A stretch of 64,000 nucleotides of DNA from Gemmatimonadota bacterium (GTDB lineage: Bacteria; Gemmatimonadota; Gemmatimonadetes; Longimicrobiales; Gaopeijiaceae): the NCBI GenBank assembly GCA_013002885.1, contig JABDLS010000114.1:1-64000 (forward strand). Reading direction: 5' to 3'. The notes beneath the pieces were generated by a model. That model saw only the letters and a program-made list of their open reading frames with translations, was not told the DNA's origin and searched no databases. Every line of letters starts with the position of its first letter. The stretch's first letter is position 1. This document shows positions 8,001-32,423 of this stretch, piece after piece. A program made the translations under genes and the position numbers.

Positions 8001-8237
8001 GACGTGGGGCTGGGTGGGTACGCCCGTTGCCGCTACCGACCGCCCACCCCGGAACGGTCCTATGCCCCGCCACTCCATGGCTGAGTAGAGACCGGGGTCG
8101 ACGGGGGGCTCCTGAGCGGCAACAAACGAAGGGGGCGCCACCAGGCTTGCGATGGCTGCCATCAGGAGTGCCGCCGCCAAGGCGGAGGAGGGGCCGGGAC
8201 AGGGAGGTCGGCCGGGGCTCGTGTTTCGGGGGTGCAT
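5040..8237 (-). CDS. Exported sortilin/BNR-repeat beta-propeller protein
   Basis: A 1065-residue protein with an N-terminal signal peptide (core LAAALLMAAIASLVAPPSFVAAQ). Repeats of the Asp-box kind (STDAGRTWMHLG, STDGGETWDLI, SDDAGDSWTLV, SFDSGEDWQSL) run over residues about 50-740, as in VPS10/sortilin-like and BNR glycosyl-hydrolase-like proteins. The last 300 residues hold an Ig-like strand region (VVWNLRHESIPNIPGAYVFG) and a helical tail. Such proteins are abundant in Gemmatimonadota; no activity is established, and catalytic glycosidase residues cannot be assigned. GGAG precedes the ATG. It is the first gene of a two-gene unit with the carboxypeptidase-regulatory-like protein. Confidence 0.88.
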   Translation of the reverse strand: MHPRNTSPGRPPCPGPSSALAAALLMAAIASLVAPPSFVAAQEPPVDPGLYSAMEWRGIGPFRGGRSVAATGVPTQPHVYYMGTVGGGVWKTTDAGMTWSNVSDGELSTSSVGAIAVAESDPNVVYVGMGEHAIRGVMTSHGDGVYRSTDAGRTWMHLGLDRTRSISRIRVHPDDPDVVYVAAQGAPYGANEERGIYRSTDGGETWDLILHVDENSGASDLAMDMTNPRILYASFWDHRRLPWRVVSGGEGSGFWKSTDGGDSWQEINAGLPELMGKTAIDVSRANPDRLFAMVEADPGGGLFRSDDAGDSWTLVSESWTIRARAWYYIEVYADPVDEETVYVMNAPFMKSVDGGRTFSSVAVPHGDQHDLWINPLDNEVMVNANDGGANVSFNGGDTWSTQQNQPTAQFYRVNLDDRFPYHVYGGQQDNSSVAIASRGPGGIGWKDWYSVGGCESARPDFDDDDPRFVYAGCYMGIISEYDHVTNSTRDIAAYPVMPAALQAREMKYRYNWSAPILVSDFDSDVIYHASNYVVRSQDRGMTWEEISPDLTRDDDSKQGYGGGPITNEGAGGEIYGTIYGFDESPHDPNVLWTGSDDGLVHVTRDGGGTWTDVTGEWGEAIVNAVHVSPHDPATVYIAVTRYKFNDFTPLAYVTRNWGESWQAIADGIDDEAWVHVVREDPVQPGLLYAATETGVYVSFDSGEDWQSLQLNLPNTPINDLMVHERENDLVVATSGRSFWILDELQPLRQAAEVADGEHHLYAPGHVYRWAGSGGFGGGGGGQNPPPGAVIDFVLGAGFGADTAASPEVTVEILTAAGDLVRTMSTDPDDEVSPGASPLSVERGANRVVWNLRHESIPNIPGAYVFGSLQGRRVVPGDYQVRLTVDEWSMTQPFEVRMDPRLDVPLSAYIEQDRFVADVANELAAIHRAASVNNDVRGQIESAMERIGEHDDTESLVAEGEDLAGELETVADSLYQSRTVDGQTVINFPTRLKFQYVFLHGNADADQPGVSMGSRDVLSDLRARWTVHQATNQELLGPRLDAFNRMLGDAGFSVVIVPPRPPRPIS

Positions 8238-8378
8238 CTTGGCTCCGTGCTGCTAGATGGATGAGGGTGCCAAGTGAGGGAATGCCGGTGGGCAGCGCAA
8301 CGTCCAGTGGGCTGTTGGGTAAGCTCGCCGGTCGCCCCCATCCGATTCCTCACTTCATCACGGCAGGAGCTCGCCTTC

Positions 8379-9164
8379 ATGGCCAATTTCAAGGTCCCGG
8401 CCCGCACGTATATGTCGTCGCCCCTCGCATCCGTCCACCGGGGAGATTCACTCGACGATGTCCATGTCCGACTTCAGGAGTCGGGCTTCTCCGCCCTCCC
8501 AGTGGTGGACGATGCAAGCCACGTCGTTGGCGTCCTCTCCCGCTCAGATCTTCTCCGATTGGGCACTCGGGAGTCCGGAGCTGAGCCGCGCTCGCCCCTG
8601 CTGGTGTTCCCCGACGGAACGGCCGGCGAAGAGATGACGCCGTCTCCGACCGCGGTTTCTCCGGCGGCGCCGCTGTCCAAGGTGGCCGGGATCATGATCG
8701 AAGACCGAGTCCATCGGGTGTTCGTCGAGACCGAGGATGGAAAGACGACCGGCGTTGTGACCACGCGGGATCTGATGCGGGCCATCTCGGACGCGAAGGT
8801 GAGCCGGCCCCTCTCCGACTTCATGTCTTCACCGGTGTTCACGATACGCGCCGCCGAGCCCGTATCCCTGGCCACCGAGCGGCTCGGCAAGGCCCGTGTG
8901 ACCGGACTGGTCGTGGTCGACGAGGCGTGGCCGGTGGGTGTCTTCAGCCAGTTCGAGGCGTTGGACGCGCGGGACGTCCGGCGGGAGACAGCGGTGGAAG
9001 ACGTGATGAGCCCGGCCATCCTGATTCTGGACGGTCGAACGCCCATTCATCGTGCCGCTGCCCAGGCCGCCAGCATGGACGTTCGCCGCATCGTGGTCAT
9101 CGACGAGGAAGCGACGGTGGGCATCGTCACGGGGCTGGATTTCGCCCGGGTCATCAGGTCATGA
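8379..9164 (+). CDS. Protein with four CBS domains
   Basis: A 261-residue soluble protein made almost entirely of CBS motifs arranged as two Bateman modules. Each repeat has the pattern MSSPLASVHRGDS..GFSALPVVDD..VVGVLSRSDLL, and a later copy reads VEDVMSPAILILDG..IVVIDEEATVGIVTGLDFAR. CBS pairs bind adenine nucleotides and act as energy sensors. The ATG at 8379 has AGGAG about 10 bases upstream; the 35 residues upstream of it in the open frame are not CBS-like. There is no attached catalytic or transport domain, so it presumably regulates a partner encoded elsewhere. Confidence 0.9.
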   Translation: MANFKVPARTYMSSPLASVHRGDSLDDVHVRLQESGFSALPVVDDASHVVGVLSRSDLLRLGTRESGAEPRSPLLVFPDGTAGEEMTPSPTAVSPAAPLSKVAGIMIEDRVHRVFVETEDGKTTGVVTTRDLMRAISDAKVSRPLSDFMSSPVFTIRAAEPVSLATERLGKARVTGLVVVDEAWPVGVFSQFEALDARDVRRETAVEDVMSPAILILDGRTPIHRAAAQAASMDVRRIVVIDEEATVGIVTGLDFARVIRS

Positions 9165-9174
9165 AGCCTTTCTG

Positions 9175-9194
9175 ACGGGGGCTTCGGCCCCTGT
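9175..9194. terminator. UUCG-tetraloop hairpin between convergent genes
   Basis: ACGGGGGC-TTCG-GCCCCTGT forms an 8-bp stem with one G-T pair and a stable TTCG loop, 10 bases after the stop of the CBS gene and before the convergent 3' end at 9257. The T-tail is weak on both sides, so it may act with Rho or only as a 3' RNA-stabilising structure. Confidence 0.55.
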
Positions 9195-9256
9195 TCCTGG
9201 GCTGGCGCCCGGACTCCGACGACCTGGGACGAGTCGGGGTCCGAGGCACCCTGTCC

Positions 9257-9754
9257 CTATGCGACCTTGGCGAACAGCACGACCTCGTTCTTGCCAAGCG
9301 CCTTCGCGCATTTCGGGCAGTAGGCATAGAAGAAGTAGAGGTGCTCCAGCTCTTCCCCCTCGTCCCTCACGTACGTCTCCATCTCGGCGATCCACTTCCT
9401 CACGTTGCGGTAGGGCCCCTCGAACACACGCGTGAGGAACACCCCGGAGAGCGTCTCCATGGTCGCTTCGGGCACAGGACGGTCCGTCGCGACGTAGATG
9501 TCACTCCCCCATGGCGAGATCTCGTCGGTGATCCAGATTGGGTCCTCGGGGTAGGCCGCGGCACCCTCGATGGCCTCGTGGTCACGACTGATCACCGAGC
9601 CGAAATTGATGGGGATGTGCAGGAACTCCAGGATGTGGTCCTTCAGGAACAGCTTGTCGGACCACGCGTGCTTCGCACGGTCCCACCGCTCGGTATCCAG
9701 ACGGGCGCAGCACCCGGTTTCGCTGTTGTCGTAGTTGGTGTCGGCGAGCTTCAT
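9257..9754 (-). CDS. Conserved hypothetical cytosolic protein
   Basis: A 165-residue protein with no signal peptide or membrane segment. Distinct features are a DTNYDNSETGCCARLD start and a C-terminal YCPKCAKALGKNEVVLFA motif whose CxxC pair could bind a metal together with the N-terminal cysteines. I recall similar proteins in many Gram-negative genomes, but I cannot tie them to a named domain or experimentally known role. GGAGG lies 5 bases before the ATG. It follows the bactofilin-like gene by a single base, so the two are almost certainly co-transcribed. Confidence 0.75.
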   Translation of the reverse strand: MKLADTNYDNSETGCCARLDTERWDRAKHAWSDKLFLKDHILEFLHIPINFGSVISRDHEAIEGAAAYPEDPIWITDEISPWGSDIYVATDRPVPEATMETLSGVFLTRVFEGPYRNVRKWIAEMETYVRDEGEELEHLYFFYAYCPKCAKALGKNEVVLFAKVA

Positions 9755-9755
9755 G

Positions 9756-10904
9756 TCATCCTCCCGCAGGGACTCGGCCCCGATCGCGAATCATCAGAGC
9801 CACCGCACCGAGGCCGAACGTGATGGCTCCGAGTCGGGCCAGCCAGCCGACCCATGGCAGGAAGCCGGCAACGGCCACGAGGGCGCCGCCGGCGAGGAAG
9901 AGAAGCACGGCGTTCCCGCGCTCTGCAGGATTCCGACTCCGCAGTACGGCTCCCCCGAGCCAGAGCCCCGTCGGTATGGGCGCCAAGTAGAGCGAGACGC
10001 CGTAAAGCACCGCGACGACCAGGGCCAGAGGAATCCCGATCACCGTAGCCCCGACGACCACGATCCCGACGGGCACCCCGATGAGTACCAATACCCCCAG
10101 CCCGAGGGCGGCGGCGGCGTTCGGCGTCGCGCCCCGGACGACTGCGGCGATGGTGGCAGGGGCGAGCACAACCAACGTCGTGCCGACCAGCAGGAACCCC
10201 AGAACCCGGAGAACCACTAGCCCCAAACCGCCCTCACCCGACTCACGTGGCTCGAGTTCGACGGCACCCTGCACAATCGTGGCCTGCGGGGAGATCCGTG
10301 CCTGGACTCCTTCCTCGACCCGGTAGCGGAGCTCGCCGCCTACGCGAGCGTCAGACGATACGGTCACTGAGGCTGCCTCCAGGCGTACGTCCCCATCGAC
10401 CTCACCCGCGAGCTCGACTTCCTGGGCGCTCACGTAGAGGTCGCCGGCAACGCGACCCAGCACGCGCACTTTACCGCCCGCCAGGTAGGCGTTGCCGTCT
10501 ACTACCGTGCCCGCGGTCAGCTCGACTCCGCCACCTACAATCGTGACGTTTTGCCCCACCGCTGCGTCGAGAAGCACCGTTCCACCCGCCCCGCGAACAC
10601 TACCCTCGATGCGACCCCGGACCGTCTGATCCCCACCACCCCCGAGGTACGACCCACCAACCGTGCCGTCGAAGTCGATCGAACCGCCCGCAGCCATGAC
10701 GTCCCCCGCCACGTACTCAGCTATCGAGACATCCCCGCTGGCAGCGACAAGATCGCCATTGGGTCGCAGGAGGACTCGGTCTTCCCAGCGGCCACCGGAG
10801 CAGGCGAGGGCCGGGAGCACGGTCAGAGCGAACAGAACCGCCCGCCCGACCGATCGAAGGGCGCGACATCCACTAGGTGTGCACCGGGTTGTTGGGCCGA
10901 GCAT
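9756..10904 (-). CDS. Bactofilin-like beta-helix protein with C-terminal membrane helices
   Basis: A 382-residue protein. The N-terminal hydrophobic segment ending LPALACSGG could be a signal or lipoprotein signal, though the lipobox is imperfect. Residues about 45-220 are short beta repeats (GGSIDFDGTVGGSYLGGGGD, VRGRIEGSVRGAGG, DGDVRLEAASVTVSS) resembling the right-handed helix of bactofilins (polymer-forming cytoskeletal proteins). The last 150 residues hold about four transmembrane helices. GGGAGG at 7 bases supports this start. It probably forms a scaffold at the envelope. It is the first gene of a unit with the 165-residue protein downstream. Confidence 0.8.
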   Translation of the reverse strand: MLGPTTRCTPSGCRALRSVGRAVLFALTVLPALACSGGRWEDRVLLRPNGDLVAASGDVSIAEYVAGDVMAAGGSIDFDGTVGGSYLGGGGDQTVRGRIEGSVRGAGGTVLLDAAVGQNVTIVGGGVELTAGTVVDGNAYLAGGKVRVLGRVAGDLYVSAQEVELAGEVDGDVRLEAASVTVSSDARVGGELRYRVEEGVQARISPQATIVQGAVELEPRESGEGGLGLVVLRVLGFLLVGTTLVVLAPATIAAVVRGATPNAAAALGLGVLVLIGVPVGIVVVGATVIGIPLALVVAVLYGVSLYLAPIPTGLWLGGAVLRSRNPAERGNAVLLFLAGGALVAVAGFLPWVGWLARLGAITFGLGAVALMIRDRGRVPAGG

Positions 10905-11064
10905 TGGATGCCTCCCTGTCGTGACCGCACTGGCCGACGCGACCGGCTGGCCGCCGGCTGAATGAAAGCTGCCGGAGACGCCGGCTCACGTCAGTCAGGG
11001 ACCGGTCGACGAAAGGCGTGGGGAGAAGCCCTGGCCGTGTCGACGGACTCAGCCGCCCGTCACC

Positions 11065-11961
11065 CTAGGCCGGGACGATGAGTACCGGCCGTTTCGAGGC
11101 CCGAAGGACCTTGTCCGCAACGCTGCCAAGCACAACCCGGCCGAGGCCGCCTCGGCCGCGCGACGCCATGACCACGAGCTCGGCGCCGATCTCGTCCACC
11201 GCGTCGAGGATCCCGGCGGCCGCATGGTTGACAACCCGGGACTCCCTCCCGACCTCCGTACCCTCAGCCACCATCCGGGACGCGACCCGCTCGAGCTCGG
11301 CGTGCGCCGCCTCGCGACTCTGGTCGAGCTGTTGCTGGATTGCTTCGACAGCGTCGGGCAGATAGACGGACTCGGTGCTGTGTGGATACTCGACCACCCT
11401 CACCAGCGACAGATCCGCGTCGAACAGATCGGCGAGGGCCACCGCAGGATCGAGCGCCGTCTCGCTGAGCTCGGAACCGTCGAGCGTGACGGCCACATGA
11501 CCGGGCTCGGGAATCCGGGCGAAGTCGGGCCGCCCACCGTCGTCCGGCGGCCGCACGAAGAGGACCGGCGCCGCAGTCGTGCGGACGAAGCGGTCGGCGA
11601 CGCTTCCCATCCAGGCTCGACTCAGCGGGCCTCGGCCGTGAGTCGCCATCACGGTCAACGAAGCACCGATCTCGGCACGGTGTGCTTCGAGGACCTCGGG
11701 GGCGTTGCCCGTGAGCACCGCCACGGAGACGTCTCCGAGACCTGCGTCCCGCGCCTGATCCGCGACCGCATCCAGATATCGCTGCTCTGCTTCGCTCAGC
11801 GGCTGGATGAAGTTGACGTCGGGGAAGGCGATCGGAGGAGGAACCTCGACCGTGGCGAGCGATAGCGAGCCTCCCGAACGCCTCAGCAGAGCGATCGCGA
11901 AGGGGAGGGCTTGCTCCGCGAACTCCGTCCCGTCCAGGGGCACCAGGATCCTGTCGAACAT
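11065..11961 (-). CDS. Tandem-domain universal stress protein (UspA family)
   Basis: A 298-residue protein with two Usp domains. The first opens MFDRILVPLDGTEFAEQALP and closes VMATHGRGPLSRAWMGSVAD, where one nucleotide-binding glycine is replaced by proline. The second closes VMASRGRGGLGRVVLGSVADK, which carries the full G-x2-G-x9-G(S) ATP-binding pattern. The second half may therefore bind ATP while the first is altered. The ATG at 11961 has GGAGG 6 bases upstream; the frame extends to 12246 but the added 95 residues are arginine/proline-rich and not Usp-like. It is divergent from the diguanylate cyclase. Confidence 0.9.
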   Translation of the reverse strand: MFDRILVPLDGTEFAEQALPFAIALLRRSGGSLSLATVEVPPPIAFPDVNFIQPLSEAEQRYLDAVADQARDAGLGDVSVAVLTGNAPEVLEAHRAEIGASLTVMATHGRGPLSRAWMGSVADRFVRTTAAPVLFVRPPDDGGRPDFARIPEPGHVAVTLDGSELSETALDPAVALADLFDADLSLVRVVEYPHSTESVYLPDAVEAIQQQLDQSREAAHAELERVASRMVAEGTEVGRESRVVNHAAAGILDAVDEIGAELVVMASRGRGGLGRVVLGSVADKVLRASKRPVLIVPA

Positions 11962-12233
11962 TTCATCCCTCCGGTGGTCGGGGTCCGCGCCGGTGTCCTG
12001 GGGAGACCCTTGAGTCGTCTTTCGGCTCCCCCCAAGGTCGCAGTCAGGGCGACGAGGGAAAGCCCAGTGAGCCGCACGGCGCGGCAGACGCCTCTGCAGT
12101 GGGCGAGGCTCGCATCCGTCGACCGGGTGTCTCGCCTCTTGCGGCAGCGGGCCGATGGGTGTCCTATCGGTCGGTCTGTGGCCACGCGCGTGAGCCTCGT
12201 GACGAGCGTCGTGCGACCCCTGAAGGAGGGGGC
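11962..12233. other. Divergent intergenic region between Usp and diguanylate cyclase genes
   Basis: 272 bases hold both upstream regions. Apart from the two ribosome-binding sites (GGAGG for the Usp gene, GAAGGAGGGGG for the cyclase) I see only a weak inverted repeat, CCGAT...ATCGG at 12152-12170. No convincing promoter hexamers were found by eye. Confidence 0.4.
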
Positions 12234-13160
12234 TTGGAGAAATCACTGAAGTTCTTCGAGGCGGTGGTAAACTCGGTCACCGAGCACATCGTGGTGGTTG
12301 ACGCGGCAGGCGTGATCGAGTGCGTCAACACGGCGTGGGTCGGCTTCGGCATCGACAACGGCAGCCGGATGCAGACTGCGGAAGATTGGCTGGGCGTCGA
12401 CTACTTCCGGGCCTGCAACGGCTCGCCGACCTCCGGTGACGGGGACGGCCCTGCGGTCGCGAAGGGTCTCCGTCGCGTCATCGACGGACAGGTGGGGGTC
12501 TTCTCACACGAATACGCCTGCCACAGTACGACCGAGCGACGGTGGTTCATGATGCGTATCACGCCTCTCGAGTGGGAGGGCCCGGCGCGCTACGTCATCT
12601 CGCATCACAACATCACCGGACGGAAGCTGGCCGAGGAGAGAGTACAGGCTCTTTCCCTCAAGGACGGACTGACGGGCCTACCGAATCGCCGACGCTTCGA
12701 CGACTTCGTTGCTTCCGAATGGCGACGGGGGCTGCGAGACAGGGCACCCGTCTCCCTCCTTCTCATCGACATCGATCATTTCAAGTTGTTCAACGACCAC
12801 TATGGACACACCGTGGGGGACGAGTGCCTGCAGAAGGTCGCCAGGGCTATCGGCGACGTCGCGCGCCGACCTGCAGATCTGGCCGCCCGATACGGCGGTG
12901 AGGAGTTCGCGGTCGTCCTGGGTGGCACCGATGAGCCCGCGGCCCACCGACTAGCGATCGAGGCGCTCGAGGCGGTCGCCGGGCTGCGAGTTCCGCACGA
13001 TGCGTCACCCACAGCGCCGATCGTCACGGTCAGCGTCGGCGTCGCGACGATGGTGCCGGAGGCCGACTCAGGTTTGGACACGCTCCTGGTGGCCGCAGAC
13101 GAGGCCCTCTATGCGGCGAAGCGTGGGGGGAGAAGTCGCGTCGAGGTCTGGACACCCTAG
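12234..13160 (+). CDS. PAS-GGDEF diguanylate cyclase
   Basis: A 308-residue cytosolic protein. A PAS domain (about residues 5-125; AVVNSVTEHIVVVDAAGVIECVN) precedes a GGDEF domain (about 140-305; LTGLPNRRRFDD). The active-site motif is GGEEF at residues 221-225, intact, and RPAD five residues before it matches the RxxD product-inhibition I-site, so it should make cyclic di-GMP from two GTP with feedback control. The TTG at 12234 is chosen because GAAGGAGGGGG ends two bases before it and residues upstream in frame are not PAS-like. It reads in the same direction as the kinase-regulator operon that follows and may feed the same pathway. Confidence 0.88.
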   Translation: MEKSLKFFEAVVNSVTEHIVVVDAAGVIECVNTAWVGFGIDNGSRMQTAEDWLGVDYFRACNGSPTSGDGDGPAVAKGLRRVIDGQVGVFSHEYACHSTTERRWFMMRITPLEWEGPARYVISHHNITGRKLAEERVQALSLKDGLTGLPNRRRFDDFVASEWRRGLRDRAPVSLLLIDIDHFKLFNDHYGHTVGDECLQKVARAIGDVARRPADLAARYGGEEFAVVLGGTDEPAAHRLAIEALEAVAGLRVPHDASPTAPIVTVSVGVATMVPEADSGLDTLLVAADEALYAAKRGGRSRVEVWTP

Positions 13161-13175
13161 GACCAACCCGCGAAC

Positions 13176-13240
13176 CGGAGGGGGATGAACCCCGACCGTG
13201 GCGAGTGAGAGCGGGGTCCCGAACGCCTCAAGGAGACCGC
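13176..13240 (-). pseudogene. Short remnant resembling the N-terminal coding part of the neighbouring Usp gene
   Basis: The spacer between the cyclase and the MHYT kinase contains about 65 bases closely similar to 11833-11893 inside the Usp gene. The stretches 13193-13230 and 11847-11884/5 match at most positions, with one gap. Read on the minus strand it gives LLEAFGTPLSLATVGVHPPP, against RSGGSLSLATVEVPPP in the Usp protein. No complete Usp domain surrounds it, so it looks like a relic of a duplicated or deleted universal-stress gene. Confidence 0.5.
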
Positions 13241-13323
13241 TCCCGTACCGATAATCGGTAAGGAAGCCGCCCCGCGCGAAACGCGTCGGCGGGATGCTCG
13301 ATCGTACGTCCCTGGAGGGGCTC

Positions 13324-15636
13324 ATGCACTTCGGTTGGCCGGATGGCCTCGATGGGTGGCTCTCCGTCACCTATGACCCCTGGCTCGTCGTGCTCTCGGT
13401 ACTCATCGCGAGCATGGCATCGTACATCACGTTGCGTCTGTTCGACGCGGCTCGCGGTTTCCAGGCCCGACGCCTGAGGTCGGCCAGCTTCCTCGGCGCA
13501 GCCGCAACGCTCGCCATCGGCGTGTGGACGATGCACTTCACCGGCATGCTCGCCGTGCTGCTGGACGCGCCCGTTGGGTATCAGGCTACGCTCACCATCG
13601 CATCGATCGCGCCCGCGATGCTAGGCTGCGGGGCCGCCTTGTGGATCCTGTCCGGGGATCGGCCAGCCGGAACACGGCTGGCTCTCGCGTCGGTGTGTCT
13701 CGCCCTCGGGATCGGGGGCATGCACCACCTCGGCATGATGGCCATGCGCACCACGGCGGTCATGCGGTACGACCCCACGCTCTTCGTCGTATCACTGCTC
13801 CTGGCCGTCGGAATCGCTCGCTTCGCTCTGGGACGCTTCGAAGCATCGAGTACTTCCGCGAACGCGCGCAGCCGGGGCATGAGCGCGGTCCTCGTCGGTC
13901 TCACCATCCCCGTCATGCACTACTCGGCGATGGCGGCAACCCGCTTCTACCCGGTCGAATCAGCGTCAAGGCCAGAGGGGCTCGTCGATCCCTTCCGGAT
14001 GGGCTTCGTCGTATACGGACTGGCGGTCACCCTGCTCGTCGTCCTCCTGCTGGGGATCGTCGCGTCCCGAGCCCGCGCCGATGCCGAACGTGAGGCTCGA
14101 CGCTTCAAGACCTTCCTCGACGTCGTTCCCGACGGCCTGCTGGTCTGTCATGCCAATGGCCGTATCGCAGTGGCGAATGCGCGAGCGGGTGAGCTCTTCG
14201 GATACGAAGTGGCCGAACTGGTCGGCCAGTCCGTTGGCGATATCCTCCCCGTGGGTGGCCCAATCGGACTGACCCAACCAGTCTCCACTCCGACAGAAGC
14301 CGACCGCGACGTCGTTGCGGCGCGCCGGGACGGAACGAAGTTCCTGAGTCAGGTCGCCGCCCACACCGTCGTCGCCGACGGTGAAGAGATGACCATGGTG
14401 GTGGTGCGCGACGTCACGGCGACGCGCGCGCAGGAGGCAACGCTGAGGCAGCTGGCCGAGGCCGTGGTCCAAGCCAGCGACGCAATCGTCATCACCGACG
14501 CGGAGGGGACGGTGGAGTACGTCAATCCCGCCTTCGAACGACTATCGGGACACAAGGCCGCCCAGGCCGTCGGGGACGTACCGCATTCGTTGCAGCCCGA
14601 TCATCCCGACTCGAAGGAGATCTGGGCCTGCATCCGTGCAGGCGAGCGCTGGAGCGGACACTTCGACTATCCGACAGCTCACGGTGAGGTCTACTCGGCC
14701 GATGTCTCCGTCTCACCCATCCTGTCGACGACGGGCGAACTCAACGGTGTCGTGGAGATCCGGCGTGACCGGACCGAGGCGGAACAGCTACAGGGTCAGC
14801 TCGCCCAGGCCCAGAAACTCGAAGCCGTCGGGCAACTGGCTGCTGGCATCGCGCACGAGATCAACACGCCGATCCAGTTCGTGGGAGACAACCTGCGCTT
14901 TCTCGGCGACAGCCTGGGCGACCTCACCGGGCTCGGCTCGCTCCTCCAAGAGTTCGTGGTCACGTCCGGAAACGGTCCACTTCCCGAGGCCTTGGTCCAG
15001 CGGGCGACCACGTCCCTCGAGGAGGCCGATCTGGACTTCCTGCTGGACGAGGTACCGGTGGCCATCGAGCAATCGCTCGAGGGGGTCTCGCGGGTCGCCG
15101 GAATCGTCCGCGCCATGAAGGAATACGCTCACCCTACGGACGAGCGGACGCCCGTCGACCTCAACGCTTCGATCCGCAACACCGTGACGGTCGCCCGGAG
15201 TGAGTGGAAGTACGTGGCCGATCTGGTGATGGACTTCGACGAGGCCCTTCCGATGGTGACCTGCTCACCAGGAGAGTTCAACCAGGTGATCCTCAACATG
15301 CTCGTCAATGCGGCCCACGCGGTCGAGGCCGCCCGCGGGACCGGAGATGTGGAGAAAGGAACCATCACCATCCGCACACGGCAGGATGACTCAACCGCGG
15401 TCATCGAGATCCAGGACACCGGTTGTGGTATGCCGGACGACGTGAGAGACAAGATCTTCGATCCCTTCTTCACAACGAAGGAGGTAGGCAAGGGCACGGG
15501 CCAGGGCTTGAGCCTCGCCCACGCCATCGTCGTCAAGAACCACGGAGGCTCTCTCTCCGTGGAGTCGGTGCCCGGAGCGGGCACGACATTCACCATTCGA
15601 CTCCCCTGGGGAGAAGCTCGGGAGGCCGTGGCATGA
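13324..15636 (+). CDS. MHYT-PAS-PAS sensor histidine kinase
   Basis: A 770-residue membrane protein. An MHYT domain (about residues 10-245) has seven helices and the repeated motifs MHFTGM, MHHLGM and MHYSAM, proposed in this family to bind metal and sense oxygen, CO or NO. Two PAS domains follow (about 260-375 and 380-500; LDVVPDGLLVCHANGRIAVAN and DAIVITDAEGTVEYVNP). The phospho-acceptor is His511 in IAHEINTP, and the ATPase domain shows N-box, DTGCGMPDD, a KGTGQGLSL G-box and PGAGTTFTIRLP. It should autophosphorylate and pass phosphate to the receivers encoded next. The ATG at 13324 has GGAGGGG 7 bases upstream, and the stop overlaps the next start (ATGA). Confidence 0.9.
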   Translation: MHFGWPDGLDGWLSVTYDPWLVVLSVLIASMASYITLRLFDAARGFQARRLRSASFLGAAATLAIGVWTMHFTGMLAVLLDAPVGYQATLTIASIAPAMLGCGAALWILSGDRPAGTRLALASVCLALGIGGMHHLGMMAMRTTAVMRYDPTLFVVSLLLAVGIARFALGRFEASSTSANARSRGMSAVLVGLTIPVMHYSAMAATRFYPVESASRPEGLVDPFRMGFVVYGLAVTLLVVLLLGIVASRARADAEREARRFKTFLDVVPDGLLVCHANGRIAVANARAGELFGYEVAELVGQSVGDILPVGGPIGLTQPVSTPTEADRDVVAARRDGTKFLSQVAAHTVVADGEEMTMVVVRDVTATRAQEATLRQLAEAVVQASDAIVITDAEGTVEYVNPAFERLSGHKAAQAVGDVPHSLQPDHPDSKEIWACIRAGERWSGHFDYPTAHGEVYSADVSVSPILSTTGELNGVVEIRRDRTEAEQLQGQLAQAQKLEAVGQLAAGIAHEINTPIQFVGDNLRFLGDSLGDLTGLGSLLQEFVVTSGNGPLPEALVQRATTSLEEADLDFLLDEVPVAIEQSLEGVSRVAGIVRAMKEYAHPTDERTPVDLNASIRNTVTVARSEWKYVADLVMDFDEALPMVTCSPGEFNQVILNMLVNAAHAVEAARGTGDVEKGTITIRTRQDDSTAVIEIQDTGCGMPDDVRDKIFDPFFTTKEVGKGTGQGLSLAHAIVVKNHGGSLSVESVPGAGTTFTIRLPWGEAREAVA

Positions 15637-24362: not shown

Positions 24363-25586
24363 CTACTCCACCTGGTCCCGCAGCATTCGCCTTGCCCAGA
24401 CGAACTGGGTCGCGAGAAGGGACGCCCCTCCGCCCAGGATGACGACGCCCACGCCGGGGACGACCTTGAGGGCTGTCCCGATGAGGAGCATCGTGGCACC
24501 GACGACGAGCACGATGCTACGCCGAGCCGTCTCCAGGGAGATCCTCATGAGCCGCTCCCGTTCGGACTCGACCGGCGAGCGCAGGGGCTCGGGTCCGGGA
24601 GGCGGCACCACCACCGATGCCAGAACCCCAACCGCGAGGATTCCGCCGATGACGATGAGGGAGGCCATGAGGGGAATCTCTGCGTGATGCAGCATCAGCA
24701 TCTTGAAGCCGACGAACGCCAGGATGAGGACGAGACTCGGACGAAGGAAGCGGAAGTGCTCCAACAGCGGCGCCAGTGCGAAGTAGAGGCTCCTCAGCCC
24801 GAGGACGGCGAAAACGTTCGAGGAGTAGACCAGGAAGGGGTCACTGGTGATGGCGAAGATGGCGGGGACGGAGTCCACCGCGAACAGGAGGTCCGCGGAC
24901 TCCACCATCAGGAGCGCAACCAGAAGCGGGGTCGCGAACCTCTTCCCGTTCTCGACCACCGTGAAGCGCTCGTCGCGAACCTCGTCCGTGATGGGCATGA
25001 CGCGACCCAGTGCCTTCACGAACGGGTTCTGCGACGGGTCGATGTTGTCGTGTCGCACCACCATGAGCCGAGCGGCCGTCAGGAGGAGGATTCCCCCGAA
25101 CAGGTACGTGGTCCAGAAGAAGCGGTGAACCAGCTCGGCTCCGACGGCGATCATGATTCCGCGCATGATCAGGGCCCCACAGACCCCCCAGAAGAGCACC
25201 CTGTGCTGGTACTTGAGGGGGATGCGCAGATGAGAGAAGATCAGCGCGATGACGAAGATGTTGTCGAGGCTGAGCGACTTCTCGAGGACGTACCCGGCGA
25301 AGAACTCGAGGGCGGCGGTGCGCCCGTCGATGTCTTGGGGAAAGGCGAGTCCGCCTCCGACCCAGTTGTTCTCATACAGGAAGTAGACGACCCCGACGAA
25401 GGCCAGAGCCAGGGCGATCCAGAATCCGCTCCAGGCCAGCGCTTCGACGAGGCGCTGGGCTCTGTGCTCGCGATGAAAGACGCCCAGATCGAGCGCCAGA
25501 AGGGCCAGGATGAGGCTGATGAACCCAGCCCAGACCGCGATCTCGATGGTTTGGCCTCCAAGGGCCGAAAACGAGGTTGATGCCAC
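24363..25586 (-). CDS. TerC/Alx family integral membrane protein
   Basis: A 407-residue protein with about nine transmembrane helices, starting at GTG 25586. Family signatures are LEFFAGYVLEKSLSLDNIFV in helix 3 and the acidic ESADLLFAVDSVPAIFAI in helix 7. These aspartates are the conserved putative metal-binding residues of TerC/Alx proteins, which have been linked to manganese export and metallation of exported proteins. The length and order fit Alx. No tellurite-resistance cluster lies nearby, so a manganese or redox role is more likely than tellurite resistance. Confidence 0.92.
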   Translation of the reverse strand: MASTSFSALGGQTIEIAVWAGFISLILALLALDLGVFHREHRAQRLVEALAWSGFWIALALAFVGVVYFLYENNWVGGGLAFPQDIDGRTAALEFFAGYVLEKSLSLDNIFVIALIFSHLRIPLKYQHRVLFWGVCGALIMRGIMIAVGAELVHRFFWTTYLFGGILLLTAARLMVVRHDNIDPSQNPFVKALGRVMPITDEVRDERFTVVENGKRFATPLLVALLMVESADLLFAVDSVPAIFAITSDPFLVYSSNVFAVLGLRSLYFALAPLLEHFRFLRPSLVLILAFVGFKMLMLHHAEIPLMASLIVIGGILAVGVLASVVVPPPGPEPLRSPVESERERLMRISLETARRSIVLVVGATMLLIGTALKVVPGVGVVILGGGASLLATQFVWARRMLRDQVE

Positions 25587-26321: not shown

Positions 26322-28160
26322 CTACCCCACCGGGCGTTCGGCCCTCCCCTCCCGCTGCCTCTCCAGTACGACACCCGGCAGCGCGTCCGTAGCCTCACCG
26401 CCATCGACTACGAAGCGGCCGTTGACCAACACCCATGTCATCCCCTTCTGGAAGACGTACGGGTCGAGGTACGTGGCGTCGCTCCGTACCGTCTCGGGGT
26501 CGAAGACCACGATGTCGGCCTTCTGACCCACCGCGATTCTCCCTCGATCCCGCAGGCCGAGGATCTGCGCCGACAGGCCGGTCATCGAACGGATGGCATG
26601 GGGAAGGGTGATGGTCCCGCGCTCGAACACGAACTCGCGGAGAAGCCGACCCGACGTCCCGTATTGGCCGGGGTGCGTCGAGGGACTGGATCGGTCACCG
26701 GTATCGGCCATGCGGTCCAGGGCGACGGCCGTGTAGTCCTGGGTCATCCACTCTTCGATGTCGACCATACCGACGGCCTTGGCCATCCAGAGGACCCCGC
26801 CGGGTTGATCAAGACCGTTCATCTGGAGCCAGATGACGGTATCGAAGACGCTCTCTCCCCGCTCCTCGGCCACCTCGGCCAGGCTCTTACCAATGTGGGC
26901 TGGGTCGGTGAAGTCGACGATGATGAGGTTCTCGGCCCCACCCTGGCGAATGATCTCGTACTCCGAGTCGACTCGGATCCGTTCTCGTGTGTCGGAATCC
27001 CGGAGCCGCGCTTGGAGGTTGTCCAGCATGCCCGTGTAGTCCACCGGTGGAAAGTCGTCGGCGGCGCTCTGTCCCGGCACTTCGCCACGGATCAGCGCCC
27101 ATCTCGGCACGAGGGTCACGTAGGCGGAATAGCCGTCGTAGGAGTGCATGTTCAGATAGACCTGGTGACCTTCTTCCCACGCCTTGTCGAGCATCTGGGT
27201 GGTGGCCTTGCTCACTCCCCACTCCCTGGGGCCCTTGGGATGAATGTGGTCGATCATTACGGGCACACCGGCGGCTTTCGCCACGTCGAGGAGTTCGACG
27301 ATGGCGTCCAGCCAGGTGACGTGACGCTGCATCGGGTGATCCATGTGCGTAGGTAGGAGCCACTTGGAATACCGCCCCTGGCTTCTCATGTGTGCCATGA
27401 AGAACCCACCGTACGGCGCCACCTCCTTGGCCAACTCCTGAACCTCCCGCTCGGAGCTGTAGCGCATGGGCGTGTACTCGAGGCCCGTGCTCATCCCGAA
27501 GGCTCCGTCCTCCATCCCCTGCCGGACGAGAGCGCGCATGCGCTCCAACTCGTCACCCGTTGCGTGGCGCATGACTTCATCGGGTTCGGTGCCCATAGCC
27601 AGCTCTCTGACCTGCCCGTGCCCCACCATGGGGACGAGGTTCAGAGCGTGGCCCAGCGCCTCCAGTGAATCGCGCTGGACGGAGAGAGGCCAGATGCCCG
27701 GGAAGCCGTCGGCGTTGATGACAGCCGTCGTGAAGCCCTGAAGCGTATAGTTCGGGACCCGGTTGTACCCATCGAGGATGCCCGGACCCAGACCCCCTTC
27801 GATGTGCTCATGCAGACCGATGAAGCCGGGAGTGACGTACTGGCCTCCGGCGTCCAGCACCCGGGTGGCGGTGGACCCGTCGAGTTGGCCGAGCGCCACG
27901 ATCTCGTTGCCCCTGATGCCGACATCGGCGTAGAAGAACGGATTCCCGGACCCGTCGAGCACCCGACCGTTCACGATGAGGACGTCGTAGTCCTGGGCGG
28001 CGGCCGGCGCCGCGCCTACGAGCACCAGGAACGCCACCGCCAGGCCCGGCGCGACGGAGACCGTTCGACGGATTCGAGGACGCGGCGAGCGGCGGCGCCG
28101 GCGAAGTCGCAGCCGTGGCGTGGATGTGGCGTAGTCGCGAAGAGTGGGGGTGGTGTTCAT
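26322..28160 (-). CDS. Exported N-acyl-D-amino-acid deacylase (amidohydrolase)
   Basis: A 612-residue protein of the D-aminoacylase/dihydroorotase-like amidohydrolase family. An arginine-rich head and hydrophobic core (GLAVAFLVLVGAAPAAAQ) form an export signal. The metal site begins GFIGLHEHIEGG and continues with PVMIDHIHPKG. The C-terminal part contains the family motif SPSTHPGQYGTSGRLL and the closing strand GRIAVGQKADIVVFDPETV. It should remove an acyl group from N-acyl-D-amino acids in the periplasm. The start overlaps the stop of the S15-type hydrolase upstream (ATGA), making it the third gene of a coupled operon. Confidence 0.9.
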   Translation of the reverse strand: MNTTPTLRDYATSTPRLRLRRRRRSPRPRIRRTVSVAPGLAVAFLVLVGAAPAAAQDYDVLIVNGRVLDGSGNPFFYADVGIRGNEIVALGQLDGSTATRVLDAGGQYVTPGFIGLHEHIEGGLGPGILDGYNRVPNYTLQGFTTAVINADGFPGIWPLSVQRDSLEALGHALNLVPMVGHGQVRELAMGTEPDEVMRHATGDELERMRALVRQGMEDGAFGMSTGLEYTPMRYSSEREVQELAKEVAPYGGFFMAHMRSQGRYSKWLLPTHMDHPMQRHVTWLDAIVELLDVAKAAGVPVMIDHIHPKGPREWGVSKATTQMLDKAWEEGHQVYLNMHSYDGYSAYVTLVPRWALIRGEVPGQSAADDFPPVDYTGMLDNLQARLRDSDTRERIRVDSEYEIIRQGGAENLIIVDFTDPAHIGKSLAEVAEERGESVFDTVIWLQMNGLDQPGGVLWMAKAVGMVDIEEWMTQDYTAVALDRMADTGDRSSPSTHPGQYGTSGRLLREFVFERGTITLPHAIRSMTGLSAQILGLRDRGRIAVGQKADIVVFDPETVRSDATYLDPYVFQKGMTWVLVNGRFVVDGGEATDALPGVVLERQREGRAERPVG

Positions 28161-29959
28161 GCGGGTGGCACCAGGGGAAGAAGCAGATGCGAGGGCCGAA
28201 CCGAATCGTGGTAGATGGTCTGCTCCGCGGTTCGGAGCTCCGCATCCACCCCGAATTCGGCACCGGTGTTCGGGTTTCGGTCGAAGCGAGGGAAGTTGCT
28301 GCTCGAGACCTCGACGCGGATGCGATGACCCGGAAGGAAGACGTTGCTCGTGGCGAGGAGGTCGATGCGGAGTTCAACGGGTTGGCCGGGGGTCAGAAGC
28401 TCCGGCTTGGTCGACCCGTTTCGGTAGCGGGCCCGGAGGATGCCGTCCGTAAGGGTCCGCGCTGTGCCATCGGGGGCCACGTCGATGAGCTTCCCGGTGA
28501 AGTCGGTGTCCGGTGCCGACGACGAGACCCATAGTACGAGCTCGATGTACCCCGTCACCTCCATGGCTTCCTCGACGGGCTCGCTCGTGTAGACCACCAC
28601 GTCGGGCCGCGACTGCAGCGGGGTGGGATCGTACGGCGCCCTCGAGTAGCCGCTCATGGCGAAGGTGGGCACCGGATCGGCGGGGTCGTAGACGTAGGTG
28701 TCGGCCGGCTCTTGCCCCGGTTCACGCCACTCGAGACGCCCGTCTTCGGGATCGCTGCCAGCCTGCCCACCGCTGTGCAGATACAGGGGCGTCGGGACGG
28801 CTCGGTCGAGCGGCCATCCCGGTTCGTCGCGCCATTCGTTCGTTCCCATGACGAACAACCGGACCGGGCCAAAATCCATCACCGACGAGTCACCTCCTCG
28901 CAGCCAGTGCTCGAACCAGCGATCCAGCAGCCCGGCGTAATCCATGCCGGCCTCCGGTCCGAAGTCGACCCCACCGATGCTTCGGCTTTCCAATGTGGGG
29001 CTGGAGTGGGTCCAGGGACCGATGATGATTCGCTGCCCGTTGCGTGCCTCGTCGGTGGCGCCACGCTCCGCGATCCCGCGGTAGTTGCCCAGGGTTCCCC
29101 TGAGCAGGGTGTCGTACCAGCCCGTGGTGTGGAGCGCAGGGACCTCGAAGCGGTCGTGGCGAAGGCCTACGTCGTACGTGGACCAGAAGTCGTCGTAGCT
29201 GGGGTGCTCCAGCATCAGCGAGTAGCCAGGAGCCAGCTCATCGAGGTCCATGACGTCAAGCGACAATAGCGGGACATGCCAGAGCCACTCGTCGCGGAGA
29301 CGGGTGCGCTCCTCGTCGGACAGTCCGATTGGGCCATCACGCTCCTCGTACGAAGCCCCCGCCCTTCGACGTCGGACATCGGCGGCTTGTCCCAGATTCC
29401 ATCCCAGCCCATCGGACAGGTAGAACGCGCCGCCCTGGAAGACCATGTCGTAGCGCCTCGTGTAGGACGAATGAGGAGCGATGGCGACGAGGCTGGGGGG
29501 TGCCAATCCGGCGGCTGTCAGTTGGGTCGTGGCCAGGTAGCTCCCACCCCACATCCCGACCTCACCGTTCACCCCGGGGAGCGACGCTACCCACTCCACG
29601 GTATCGTAGCCGTCCTCCGCCTCATCGTGGGGTACGGCTACGCCTTCGGAGGCGTAGCGGCCCCGGGTGTCCTGGACGACCACCACGTACCCCTTCGAAG
29701 CCCACTCGCGGAAGCCGTCCGGTGATTCACCGGCATTCTTGGAGTAGGGCGTCCGTCGCAGCATCGCCGGGAAGGAGCCCGCCGCGTCGGGCCGGTAGAC
29801 ATCGGCTCGAAGGACGACGCCGTCGCGCATCTCAGCGGGCACGTTCTTCTCGACGATGACCGAATACGGCGCGTCGACGGTCGCGTTTCCGCATGCCGTG
29901 ATCATGACACCGAGCAAGGTGCCGAGGATCAGGCGGGCGCCCAGCGGAGGCCGGTTCAT
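28157..29959 (-). CDS. CocE/NonD (X-Pro dipeptidyl-peptidase S15) family lipoprotein hydrolase
   Basis: A 600-residue protein. The signal ends in lipobox ITAC with Cys23, so it is probably anchored to a membrane. The alpha/beta-hydrolase domain has the nucleophile Ser140 in MWGGSYLATTQ, and the C-terminal half is the jelly-roll domain of the S15 class (IRVEVSSSNFPRFDRNPNTG). The family includes X-Pro dipeptidyl peptidases, cocaine esterase and glutaryl-7-ACA acylases, so the substrate may be a peptide, ester or amide. It overlaps both the P1 peptidase upstream and the deacylase downstream by four bases. Confidence 0.9.
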   Translation of the reverse strand: MNRPPLGARLILGTLLGVMITACGNATVDAPYSVIVEKNVPAEMRDGVVLRADVYRPDAAGSFPAMLRRTPYSKNAGESPDGFREWASKGYVVVVQDTRGRYASEGVAVPHDEAEDGYDTVEWVASLPGVNGEVGMWGGSYLATTQLTAAGLAPPSLVAIAPHSSYTRRYDMVFQGGAFYLSDGLGWNLGQAADVRRRRAGASYEERDGPIGLSDEERTRLRDEWLWHVPLLSLDVMDLDELAPGYSLMLEHPSYDDFWSTYDVGLRHDRFEVPALHTTGWYDTLLRGTLGNYRGIAERGATDEARNGQRIIIGPWTHSSPTLESRSIGGVDFGPEAGMDYAGLLDRWFEHWLRGGDSSVMDFGPVRLFVMGTNEWRDEPGWPLDRAVPTPLYLHSGGQAGSDPEDGRLEWREPGQEPADTYVYDPADPVPTFAMSGYSRAPYDPTPLQSRPDVVVYTSEPVEEAMEVTGYIELVLWVSSSAPDTDFTGKLIDVAPDGTARTLTDGILRARYRNGSTKPELLTPGQPVELRIDLLATSNVFLPGHRIRVEVSSSNFPRFDRNPNTGAEFGVDAELRTAEQTIYHDSVRPSHLLLPLVPPA

Positions 29960-31209
29960 CTCCTGAGCCGGTTGTAGCTCCGGAGGATCTCGCGAAGGCG
30001 GTCGTGGGGCAGACGATGGACGGTCACATCGTCCGCACCGGTCATCGTCTCCGCCGCCACCATGGCGTTGACCACGGCTTCTTCGGTGGCCTGGACCGTG
30101 GCCGAGAAGATGGGGTTCAAGCGCTCGTTGGCGAGGACCTCTAGGCCAGCCACCGCCGCACGCTCCCGAGCCGCTCCACGGTTGGCCGTCGAGAAGGCCA
30201 TGAAGATGTCGCCCGAGCCATTGCCCGAGGTGCTGCCGTTCCGCCCGAGACCGAGGGAGACACGTGTGGCGATGCGCTCGAGCTGATGCGGAAGGACCGG
30301 TGCGTCCGTGGCCACCACAACGATGATGGACCCCTCGCGATCGGCGCGGTCGTCGGCCTCGACGGGAGAACCGTTCGGCCCCGGTCGTTCGGGGAGAAGG
30401 TCCGGGATCTCGGTCCCGACAGGGACACCTGCGACACGGAGCTGCTCTCTACTTCCGTAGTTGCACTGCACGAGGACGCCTACGGTGTAGGTCGCATCGT
30501 CCACGGCGATGACACGCGACGACGTCCCGATCCCGCCCTTGAAGCGATGACAGATCATTCCCGTGCCGCCACCGACATTCCCCTCGTCCACGGACCCGCC
30601 GGTGGCCCCGTCCATGGCCAACAGGGCGTCCTCCACCGTCACGTGCTGACCGAGGATGTCGTTCAGCGTACCGTCCCACGTCTCTGCAACCACGGGCAGC
30701 GATGCCAGCCAGGGTGGATAGCCGACGCCGTCCCAGTCACCGCTCCGCGTGACTCCCCACCGCACGACGGCGTGGTGCACGATACCGACGTTGAGGGTGT
30801 TGGTGATCATGACCGGCCCTTCCAGCAGACCTGAGTCCTCGACCCACGTCGTGCCCGTCATCTCGCCGTCTCCGTTTAGGGAGAACCACGCGGCGAAGAC
30901 CGGATCCGGTGTCTCGTTGCCCCTGGGCCAAACGGCGGTCACGCCCGTTCGCACCGGGCCCTGACCCACGACTCTCGGACCGCTTCCCCGGACCAGGGAG
31001 ACGTGCCCGACCTCGACTCCGGCTACGTCGGTGATTGCGTTGAAAGGTCCGGGTGATCCCTCGAAGGGGACGCCGAGATCGCGAGCGCGAGGGGCCTGGG
31101 CGTCGACAGGTGTCACAACGAGGAAGGCGACCAAGGCCGTCGCGACCGCCGCTGGCACGCCCGTGGTCGAGAGCCTGCGTGGGCCGTTCTGGGGCAGATG
31201 TGTACGCAT
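29956..31209 (-). CDS. P1 family (DmpA/BapA-type) aminopeptidase
   Basis: A 417-residue exported protein with a signal peptide ending near TPVDAQA. The family makes a precursor that cuts itself before the nucleophile; here Ser294 in REGSIIVVVATDAPVLPHQL fits the start of the small subunit. Other family marks are RTGVTAVWPRG, NTLNVGIVHHAV and GSGDIFMAFSTAN. Relatives cleave N-terminal D-amino acids (DmpA) or beta-amino acids (BapA). The ATG at 31209 precedes the signal; a TTG at 31245 is the alternative. It is the first gene of the operon with the S15 hydrolase and the D-acylase. Confidence 0.92.
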   Translation of the reverse strand: MRTHLPQNGPRRLSTTGVPAAVATALVAFLVVTPVDAQAPRARDLGVPFEGSPGPFNAITDVAGVEVGHVSLVRGSGPRVVGQGPVRTGVTAVWPRGNETPDPVFAAWFSLNGDGEMTGTTWVEDSGLLEGPVMITNTLNVGIVHHAVVRWGVTRSGDWDGVGYPPWLASLPVVAETWDGTLNDILGQHVTVEDALLAMDGATGGSVDEGNVGGGTGMICHRFKGGIGTSSRVIAVDDATYTVGVLVQCNYGSREQLRVAGVPVGTEIPDLLPERPGPNGSPVEADDRADREGSIIVVVATDAPVLPHQLERIATRVSLGLGRNGSTSGNGSGDIFMAFSTANRGAARERAAVAGLEVLANERLNPIFSATVQATEEAVVNAMVAAETMTGADDVTVHRLPHDRLREILRSYNRLRR

Positions 31210-31346
31210 GAGGGGGAAACGACCCTCCGGCGCGCTCCCCGGCAAGGGGGACGGTGCGCCACGCGCTTCGGGCCCGTATCGTACCCTTCGATGGCGGCCC
31301 GGCGCTTGGGCCGTACGCTGACCGACCCGCTGCAGGAGGGGCCCAC

Positions 31347-32423
31347 ATGTCGACCCGAAGAGACTTCATCCGAACGACGGCCCAGGGCCTCGCCGGCCTC
31401 GGCGCCGCCGCAGCCCTCCCCGAGGTGGCTTCCGCGGAAGTCGTCGTCGGAGCGGCTCGGGTGGCGGGCTTTCCCAAGGGGTCGGGCTTCGTAGGGTCCA
31501 CGAGCGTGGCCACCGGGACGGGGCTCTTCTACGACCCTGCCTGCCTGGAGCATGTGGTTCCGCCTGCCAGCAGCGGAGCACCCAGACCGGAGATCGCCGA
31601 GCGGCTTGTCCGCATCATGGAGGTCCTGAACGAGCGGGGGCTCGTCGATGAGATGCACTCGGTGGCACCTCTCGATGACCCCATGCCTCACATCCAGCGG
31701 CATCACACACCGGAGCACGTGGCGGGCATCCGTCAGATTCCGGTGACGGGTCCCCTGGCCGAACTCGCCGTCGCCGGTGCCCTCGGCTCCGTGGATGCCG
31801 TCGCACGCGGCGACGTGCGAAACGCCTTTTGCGCCGTCCGTCCTCCGGGGCACCACGCCAACAACACCGGCGCGGAAGAGGGCTTTTGCTACTACAGCAA
31901 CGCCGCAATCACCGCCCGCTACGCACAACGGGCATGGGGCTACGAGAAGGTCCTCATCATCGACTGGGACTACCATCACGGGAACGCCACGCAGAACGCT
32001 TTCTTCGACGACCCCTCGGTGCTCTTCTACTCGACCCACGACTGGGAGGCGTATCCGGGAACGGGTGACCCCAGCCTGGTCGGCGAAGGCGATGGTCACG
32101 GGACGAACATCAACGTCCATCTCGACTGTGGGAGTCGCGACATCGACATGCTGCGGGTCTGGGACGACGCCCTCGACCCCGCCGTGGCAGCGTTCGACCC
32201 GGACCTGGTCATCGTGTCGGCGGGCTTCGACAGTCGTCAGGACGACCTGCTGGGCTGTTTCGATGTCACCGACGACGCCTTCCGCCGGATGTCCCGACGG
32301 GCCATGGCGTACGCCGACTCGTGCTGCGAGGGTCGGCTGGTGTCGCTACTGGAGGGTGGCTACAACGTCGAGGGGCTGGCGATGGCGACGGCCGCCCACG
32401 TGGAGACGCTCCTGGGGGGTTGA
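31347..32423 (+). CDS. Histone-deacetylase-family amidohydrolase with Tat signal
   Basis: A 358-residue protein. The N-terminus STRRDFIRTTAQGLAGLGAA is a twin-arginine signal. The arginase/deacetylase fold retains the full active site: RPPGHH (His169/His170), Zn ligands Asp208 and His210 in IDWDYHHG and Asp295 in SAGFDS, and the catalytic tyrosine 339 in EGGYN. Bacterial members deacetylate small molecules such as polyamines or acetoin-related compounds. The Tat signal is unusual and suggests a periplasmic substrate. GGAGGGG lies 7 bases before the ATG. It is divergent from the P1/S15/deacylase operon. Confidence 0.88.
   Translation: MSTRRDFIRTTAQGLAGLGAAAALPEVASAEVVVGAARVAGFPKGSGFVGSTSVATGTGLFYDPACLEHVVPPASSGAPRPEIAERLVRIMEVLNERGLVDEMHSVAPLDDPMPHIQRHHTPEHVAGIRQIPVTGPLAELAVAGALGSVDAVARGDVRNAFCAVRPPGHHANNTGAEEGFCYYSNAAITARYAQRAWGYEKVLIIDWDYHHGNATQNAFFDDPSVLFYSTHDWEAYPGTGDPSLVGEGDGHGTNINVHLDCGSRDIDMLRVWDDALDPAVAAFDPDLVIVSAGFDSRQDDLLGCFDVTDDAFRRMSRRAMAYADSCCEGRLVSLLEGGYNVEGLAMATAAHVETLLGG

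Follow-up and report, generated by a model that had tools for sequence, protein, structure and literature searches.

The three enzyme families considered here are known from biotechnology use or from sequence-based annotation, and their natural substrates are poorly known. In family S15, proteins of the cocaine esterase (CocE) type need not act on peptides. The pairing of a class III aminotransferase with a CoA-acylating semialdehyde dehydrogenase is used in β-alanine catabolism, and the (methyl)malonate-semialdehyde dehydrogenase (MMSDH), which is such an enzyme, also serves valine and 3-hydroxypropionate. In Cupriavidus necator, an aptA-mmsA1 operon has been assigned to the use of substrates that generate β-alanine (PMC6572756). 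Among the amidohydrolases of subtype V, Cys97 of OngB is a zinc ligand, and almost no activity is left when any one of the ligands is replaced by alanine (PMC12017989). In the S58/P1 aminopeptidases, to which DmpA and BapA belong, position 146 is reported to be variable (PMC9570944).

The locus described here lies in a window of 64,000 nucleotides from a Gemmatimonadota genome, this being the whole stretch of DNA that was analysed. It consists of three consecutive genes on the reverse strand, encoding an S58 aminopeptidase, an S15 hydrolase and an amidohydrolase (Table 1). The original prediction was of three linked, exported hydrolases joined by four-base overlaps. The open reading frames, the ATGA junctions and the export signals all bear this out, and the coordinates given for the trio were correct. 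The aminopeptidase has a Sec-type signal (VVTPVDAQA), its hydrophobic N-terminus ending in VDAQA, the S15 protein has the lipobox ITAC with its cysteine at residue 23, and the N-terminus of the amidohydrolase is also hydrophobic and ends in AAAQD. In the two related genomes that carry the same trio (G003 and G005), the second junction has no overlap, there being a gap of about 14-25 nt after the stop codon. Beyond the amidohydrolase, which is the last gene of the operon, is a DinB gene on the forward strand. A scan of the operon region for promoters and terminators found none, including any sigma-70-like site, and the promoter role given in Table 1 is therefore presumed from position; an Rfam search of the window gave no matches, and hence no Rfam riboswitch. 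The source genome is a 4.0 Mb draft, which also contains two further S58 genes, one further CocE-type gene and several paralogues resembling D-aminoacylase.

Table 1. Features of the operon region, in positions of the window.
Feature	Position	Strand	Remarks
TerC/Alx-type membrane protein	24363-25586		Adjoins the operon region
D-aminoacylase-like amidohydrolase	26322-28160	-	Predicted exported
S15/amidohydrolase overlap (ATGA)	28157-28160	-	4 bp; absent from G003 and G005
S15 hydrolase, CocE/NonD-type	28157-29959	-	Predicted lipoprotein (Cys23)
S58/S15 overlap (ATGA)	29956-29959	-	4 bp; kept in G003 and G005
S58/P1 (DmpA-BapA family) N-terminal-nucleophile aminopeptidase	29956-31209	-	Start ATG, or alternative TTG at 31245
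Divergent intergenic region	31210-31346		137 bp; presumed operon promoter region, from gene positions
HDAC-family (class II-like) deacetylase	31347-32423	+	PF00850, E 5e-75; Tat-type N-terminus STRRDFIRTTAQG

The first protein is assigned to peptidase family S58/P1 both by its family score (PF03576, E 1e-110; 370 bits against a gathering score of 23.9) and by its self-cleavage and catalytic residues. Compared with solved structures, it scores 359.5 bits with BapA and 358.7 bits with DmpA, the whole mature length being aligned. The equivalents of DmpA N218, G249-S250, S288 and D290 are all conserved, with the aligned residues (NGSSGD) as in DmpA. Self-cleavage is predicted between Gly293 and Ser294 (numbered from the ATG; 305/306 from the TTG), with the serine codon at 30330-30328. 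Like its family, the enzyme may release N-terminal D- or β-amino acids, and since the scores to BapA and DmpA are so nearly equal, the choice between D- and β-specificity is left unassigned by the sequence. In a tree of S58 loci, the window protein falls within a distinct and supported group of nine.

The second protein can be classed as a CocE/NonD hydrolase, on the basis of its match to TIGR00976 (E 3e-145; 485 bits against a cut-off of 66.3), its S15 and PepX_C domains (PF02129, E 3e-58, and PF08530), and its Ser-His-Asp triad. It matches cocaine esterase across the full length with 364 bits, while α-amino-acid ester hydrolases reach about 168 bits, which is under half of that score. Tyr72, Ser140, Asp283 and His318 are invariant across five homologues. 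Given that its closest relative is cocaine esterase, activity on peptide bonds is an assumption. An X-Pro dipeptidyl peptidase, the S15 enzyme in the strict sense, was also considered and rejected (PRK05371, 72.7 bits against a cut-off of 642).

The third protein matches PF07969 (Amidohydro_3, E 4e-19) and scores 160 bits with D-aminoacylase, and the best NCBIfam model (NF006560) gives 163 bits, which is below its cut-off of 340. The HxH motif (His117, His119), His257, His305 and Asp482 are all kept. The protein has no cysteine anywhere, and the position of the zinc-ligand cysteine is occupied by Asp151, which is invariant in five orthologues. Among 20 near-full-length homologues from the fetched loci, this position is Asp in 17 and Cys in none, with His257 and His305 present in all 20 and Asp482 in 19. 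The D-aminoacylase label thus fails on a defining feature, the cysteine having been replaced. The protein may still work as a metal amidohydrolase, with aspartate as a ligand. A structure prediction from a five-sequence alignment had a mean pLDDT of 37. The D-aminoacylase-like paralogues of the same genome (L002-L008) also have no zinc-ligand cysteine, Asp being usual there, and some of them deviate further at other metal positions. Amidohydrolases of this cysteine-less kind deserve specialist attention.

These observations bear directly on the function first proposed for the trio, which was a pathway for peptides containing D-amino acids or N-acyl-D-amino acids, such as cell-wall fragments or lipopeptides. 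This now appears improbable. It is true that the structure which the third protein matches best is D-aminoacylase, and that the S58 protein matches D-aminopeptidases (5tzb, 2drh) as well as DmpA. However, neither the amidohydrolase nor its orthologues have the zinc-ligand cysteine, whose counterpart in OngB, Cys97, is essential (PMC12017989). The same family includes sugar-acid deacetylases, OngB among them, so that D-specificity is not readable from family membership. When ten genes around the operon were scanned for families, none proved to be a D-amino-acid oxidase, a racemase or a cell-wall gene.

Divergent from the operon, with 137 bp between its start and that of the S58 gene, is a gene for an HDAC-family deacetylase, which the original prediction had not included. 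The protein best matches HDAC6 and HDAH, with propanil and dimethoate hydrolases among the weaker matches, and its Tat-type signal makes export probable. The gene adjoins S58 in G005 (L074) and S15 in a further genome (G025, L154), but no copy was found next to the trio of G003. It is a possible fourth partner of the operon. The CocE-type protein and this neighbour could together indicate detoxification of acylated drugs, antibiotics or esters, and the closeness of the S15 protein to CocE and to α-amino-acid ester hydrolases would fit this, as would the propanil and dimethoate hydrolases. We regard it as very improbable, however, in that the operon is without any resistance or efflux gene and the adjacency of the HDAC-family gene is not universal.

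The original prediction had itself named a genomic survey as the check on the linkage, with rare linkage counting against it. Among 98 related genomes, the complete trio is found in 3, namely the window genome (G000), G003 and G005, which are three species of one genus; in G005 the S58 gene is split over two contig ends. S58 homologues occur in 78 of the 98, and S15 homologues in 48. In a 395-genome sample of the phylum, searched for S15, the trio was confirmed in the window genome and G003 only: S15 orthologues of at least about 58% identity were found elsewhere in G003, G025, G390, G183, G204 and G304, and only G003 has the trio. Since it is so rare, and most orthologues stand alone, what was to count against the linkage is largely what was found. 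The linkage does not extend beyond close relatives as a conserved three-gene system, and the idea of a general system is rejected, although the genomes surveyed are drafts and some of the absences may be contig breaks. It is worth adding that a record titled as a Klebsiella pneumoniae MAG (L105, CAMAXE010000001.1) contains an S15 protein of 56% identity to that of the window, and that this title looks wrong. A literature search found no description of the trio, subscription journals being mostly outside its coverage.

It could be that the three genes are unrelated housekeeping hydrolases, brought together by chance in one genus and sharing no pathway. The low count is as this would predict, and the orthologues do occur apart: the 574 bp of contig that extend beyond the S58 gene of G006 (83% identity) contain no match to S15, in G025 the S15 gene (70%) adjoins an HDAC gene with no S58 between them, and the amidohydrolase (about 71-74%) is located elsewhere in G025 and G049, standing alone in the latter. 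Chance adjacency nevertheless seems to us rather unlikely. The orthologues in the three species are about 72-86% identical in protein sequence, and the trio has survived this 14-28% divergence while the flanking genes were rearranged, with the S58/S15 overlap kept in all three, and this points to a degree of functional coupling. Young or rare as the trio is, the pairing of S15 with S58 recurs. In another family of the same class, G304 (L158, C33; 3449-8492) has a tight same-strand operon of S15, M28 and S58 genes, and in an acidobacterium (L110) S15 and S58 are convergent. These pairings, which also weigh against chance, suggest a peptide-related role.

The surroundings of other S58 genes provide a clue as to the substrate. 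A set of 103 S58 loci and 62 control loci was examined for a class III aminotransferase and MMSDH (TIGR01722 above cut-off) within 9 kb of S58. The two genes are present on the same strand beside 17 of 34 near relatives of the window protein (50-68% identity), and beside none of the 9 loci of its own clade, none of 60 in a distant clade and none of the 62 controls. Fisher p-values for this association are small, but ignore shared ancestry and are descriptive only. The 17 loci are L076, L050, L053-L055, L066-L068, L070, L073, L075, L077 and L170-L174, and M28 peptidase and EVE genes are often also present. One of them (L076; G000:C63:50000-68600, 7952-14211) contains an S58 paralogue from the window genome itself. 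Two layouts are seen, which fall in separate clusters of the S58 tree: the family of the window genome has EVE-S58-(M28)-MMSDH-aminotransferase, and in other families of the order S58 is preceded upstream by MMSDH-aminotransferase. The best matches of the aminotransferase among solved structures are mixed class III enzymes. At a further locus (L058; G041:C41, 1199-6756), an AGCS carrier, a PLP decarboxylase and a dihydropyrimidinase precede S58 on the same strand.

The near-relative loci are likely to be β-alanine catabolic loci, and the S58 enzymes encoded there would, from their gene context, release β-alanine. For the window enzyme, the connection is by kinship only, given that its own clade has no such pair. 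In the papers searched, a link between S58, the aminotransferase and MMSDH was not reported. The recurring neighbourhood offers a directly testable natural role, the release of β-alanine, for enzymes of the DmpA/BapA type. A bolder proposal is that the exported S58 enzymes of Gemmatimonadota are β-aminopeptidases feeding β-alanine catabolism, with the trio as a branch for acyl-blocked β-alanyl compounds in which the metal of the amidohydrolase is held by Asp rather than Cys. Taken as a whole this is quite unlikely to be right, but if true it would give the DmpA/BapA-type family a natural role.

The explanation that we prefer for the trio, with roughly even chances of being correct, is that the operon is specific to its lineage and serves to scavenge, outside the cytoplasm, peptides and amides that are short or modified (acylated). 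The genes would be co-transcribed. The exported aminopeptidase would cleave itself at Gly-Ser, and the freed serine would remove the N-terminal residue from small peptides or amides, β-alanyl substrates probably being preferred to D-aminoacyl ones. The lipoprotein would hydrolyse an ester or amide by means of Ser140-His318-Asp283, and the amidohydrolase would take an acyl group off nitrogen with the help of a metal bound by histidines and, in place of Cys, probably by Asp151. Acting together, the three would remove blocking groups and set free amino acids that the cell could take up. This scavenging role draws on the gene order, the overlaps, the families, the active-site and catalytic residues, the export signals and the retention of the trio in three species, and is favoured also by the S15/S58 pairing elsewhere, by the near-relative context (17/34) and by the C. 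necator operon (PMC6572756). Against it are the absence of β-alanine genes from the clade of the window protein (0/9), and that a CocE-type S15 enzyme may not act on peptides. Of the original interpretation, the three linked exported hydrolases have stood, with active sites that are intact in S58 and S15 and with the operon kept in three species. The idea of the trio as a general system devoted to D-amino acids has not, being weakened by rarity, by the cysteine-less third protein, by the tie between DmpA and BapA, and by a near-relative context that favours β-alanine. The trio is mostly ordinary and rare; the S58 neighbourhood, like the cysteine-less amidohydrolases, merits specialist attention.

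Each of the three proteins lies in or near a known family, and the variants are the combination and the Asp-for-Cys site. The aminopeptidase resembles DmpA of Ochrobactrum anthropi (1b65) in its full-length match, its GS nucleophile motif and its equivalents of N218, S250, S288 and the Asp at 290, and differs in bearing an export signal and in having Trp at the position of DmpA Tyr146. It matches BapA of Sphingosinicella (3n2w) equally at full length and in catalytic residues, whereas BapA has an NS cleavage site and Glu at 290. The S15 protein aligns with CocE (1ju3, 3ida; TIGR00976) throughout, keeping the triad and the oxyanion tyrosine, and differs as a predicted lipoprotein. The amidohydrolase has the subtype V layout of D-aminoacylase AfDam (1m7j, 1rjp), N-acyl-D-glutamate deacylase BbDam (3giq) and the GlcNAc1A deacetylase OngB (9kb1), including the HxH, His257, His305 and Asp482 positions, but differs from all of them in Asp151, in its lack of any cysteine, in its long inserts and in its sub-cut-off NCBIfam score. 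Finally, the aminotransferase and MMSDH pair of the C. necator aptA-mmsA1 operon (PMC6572756) is also found beside near S58 relatives, the C63 paralogue included, although here the pair is not adjacent to the window trio and its class III aminotransferase lacks a sequence-based β-alanine assignment.
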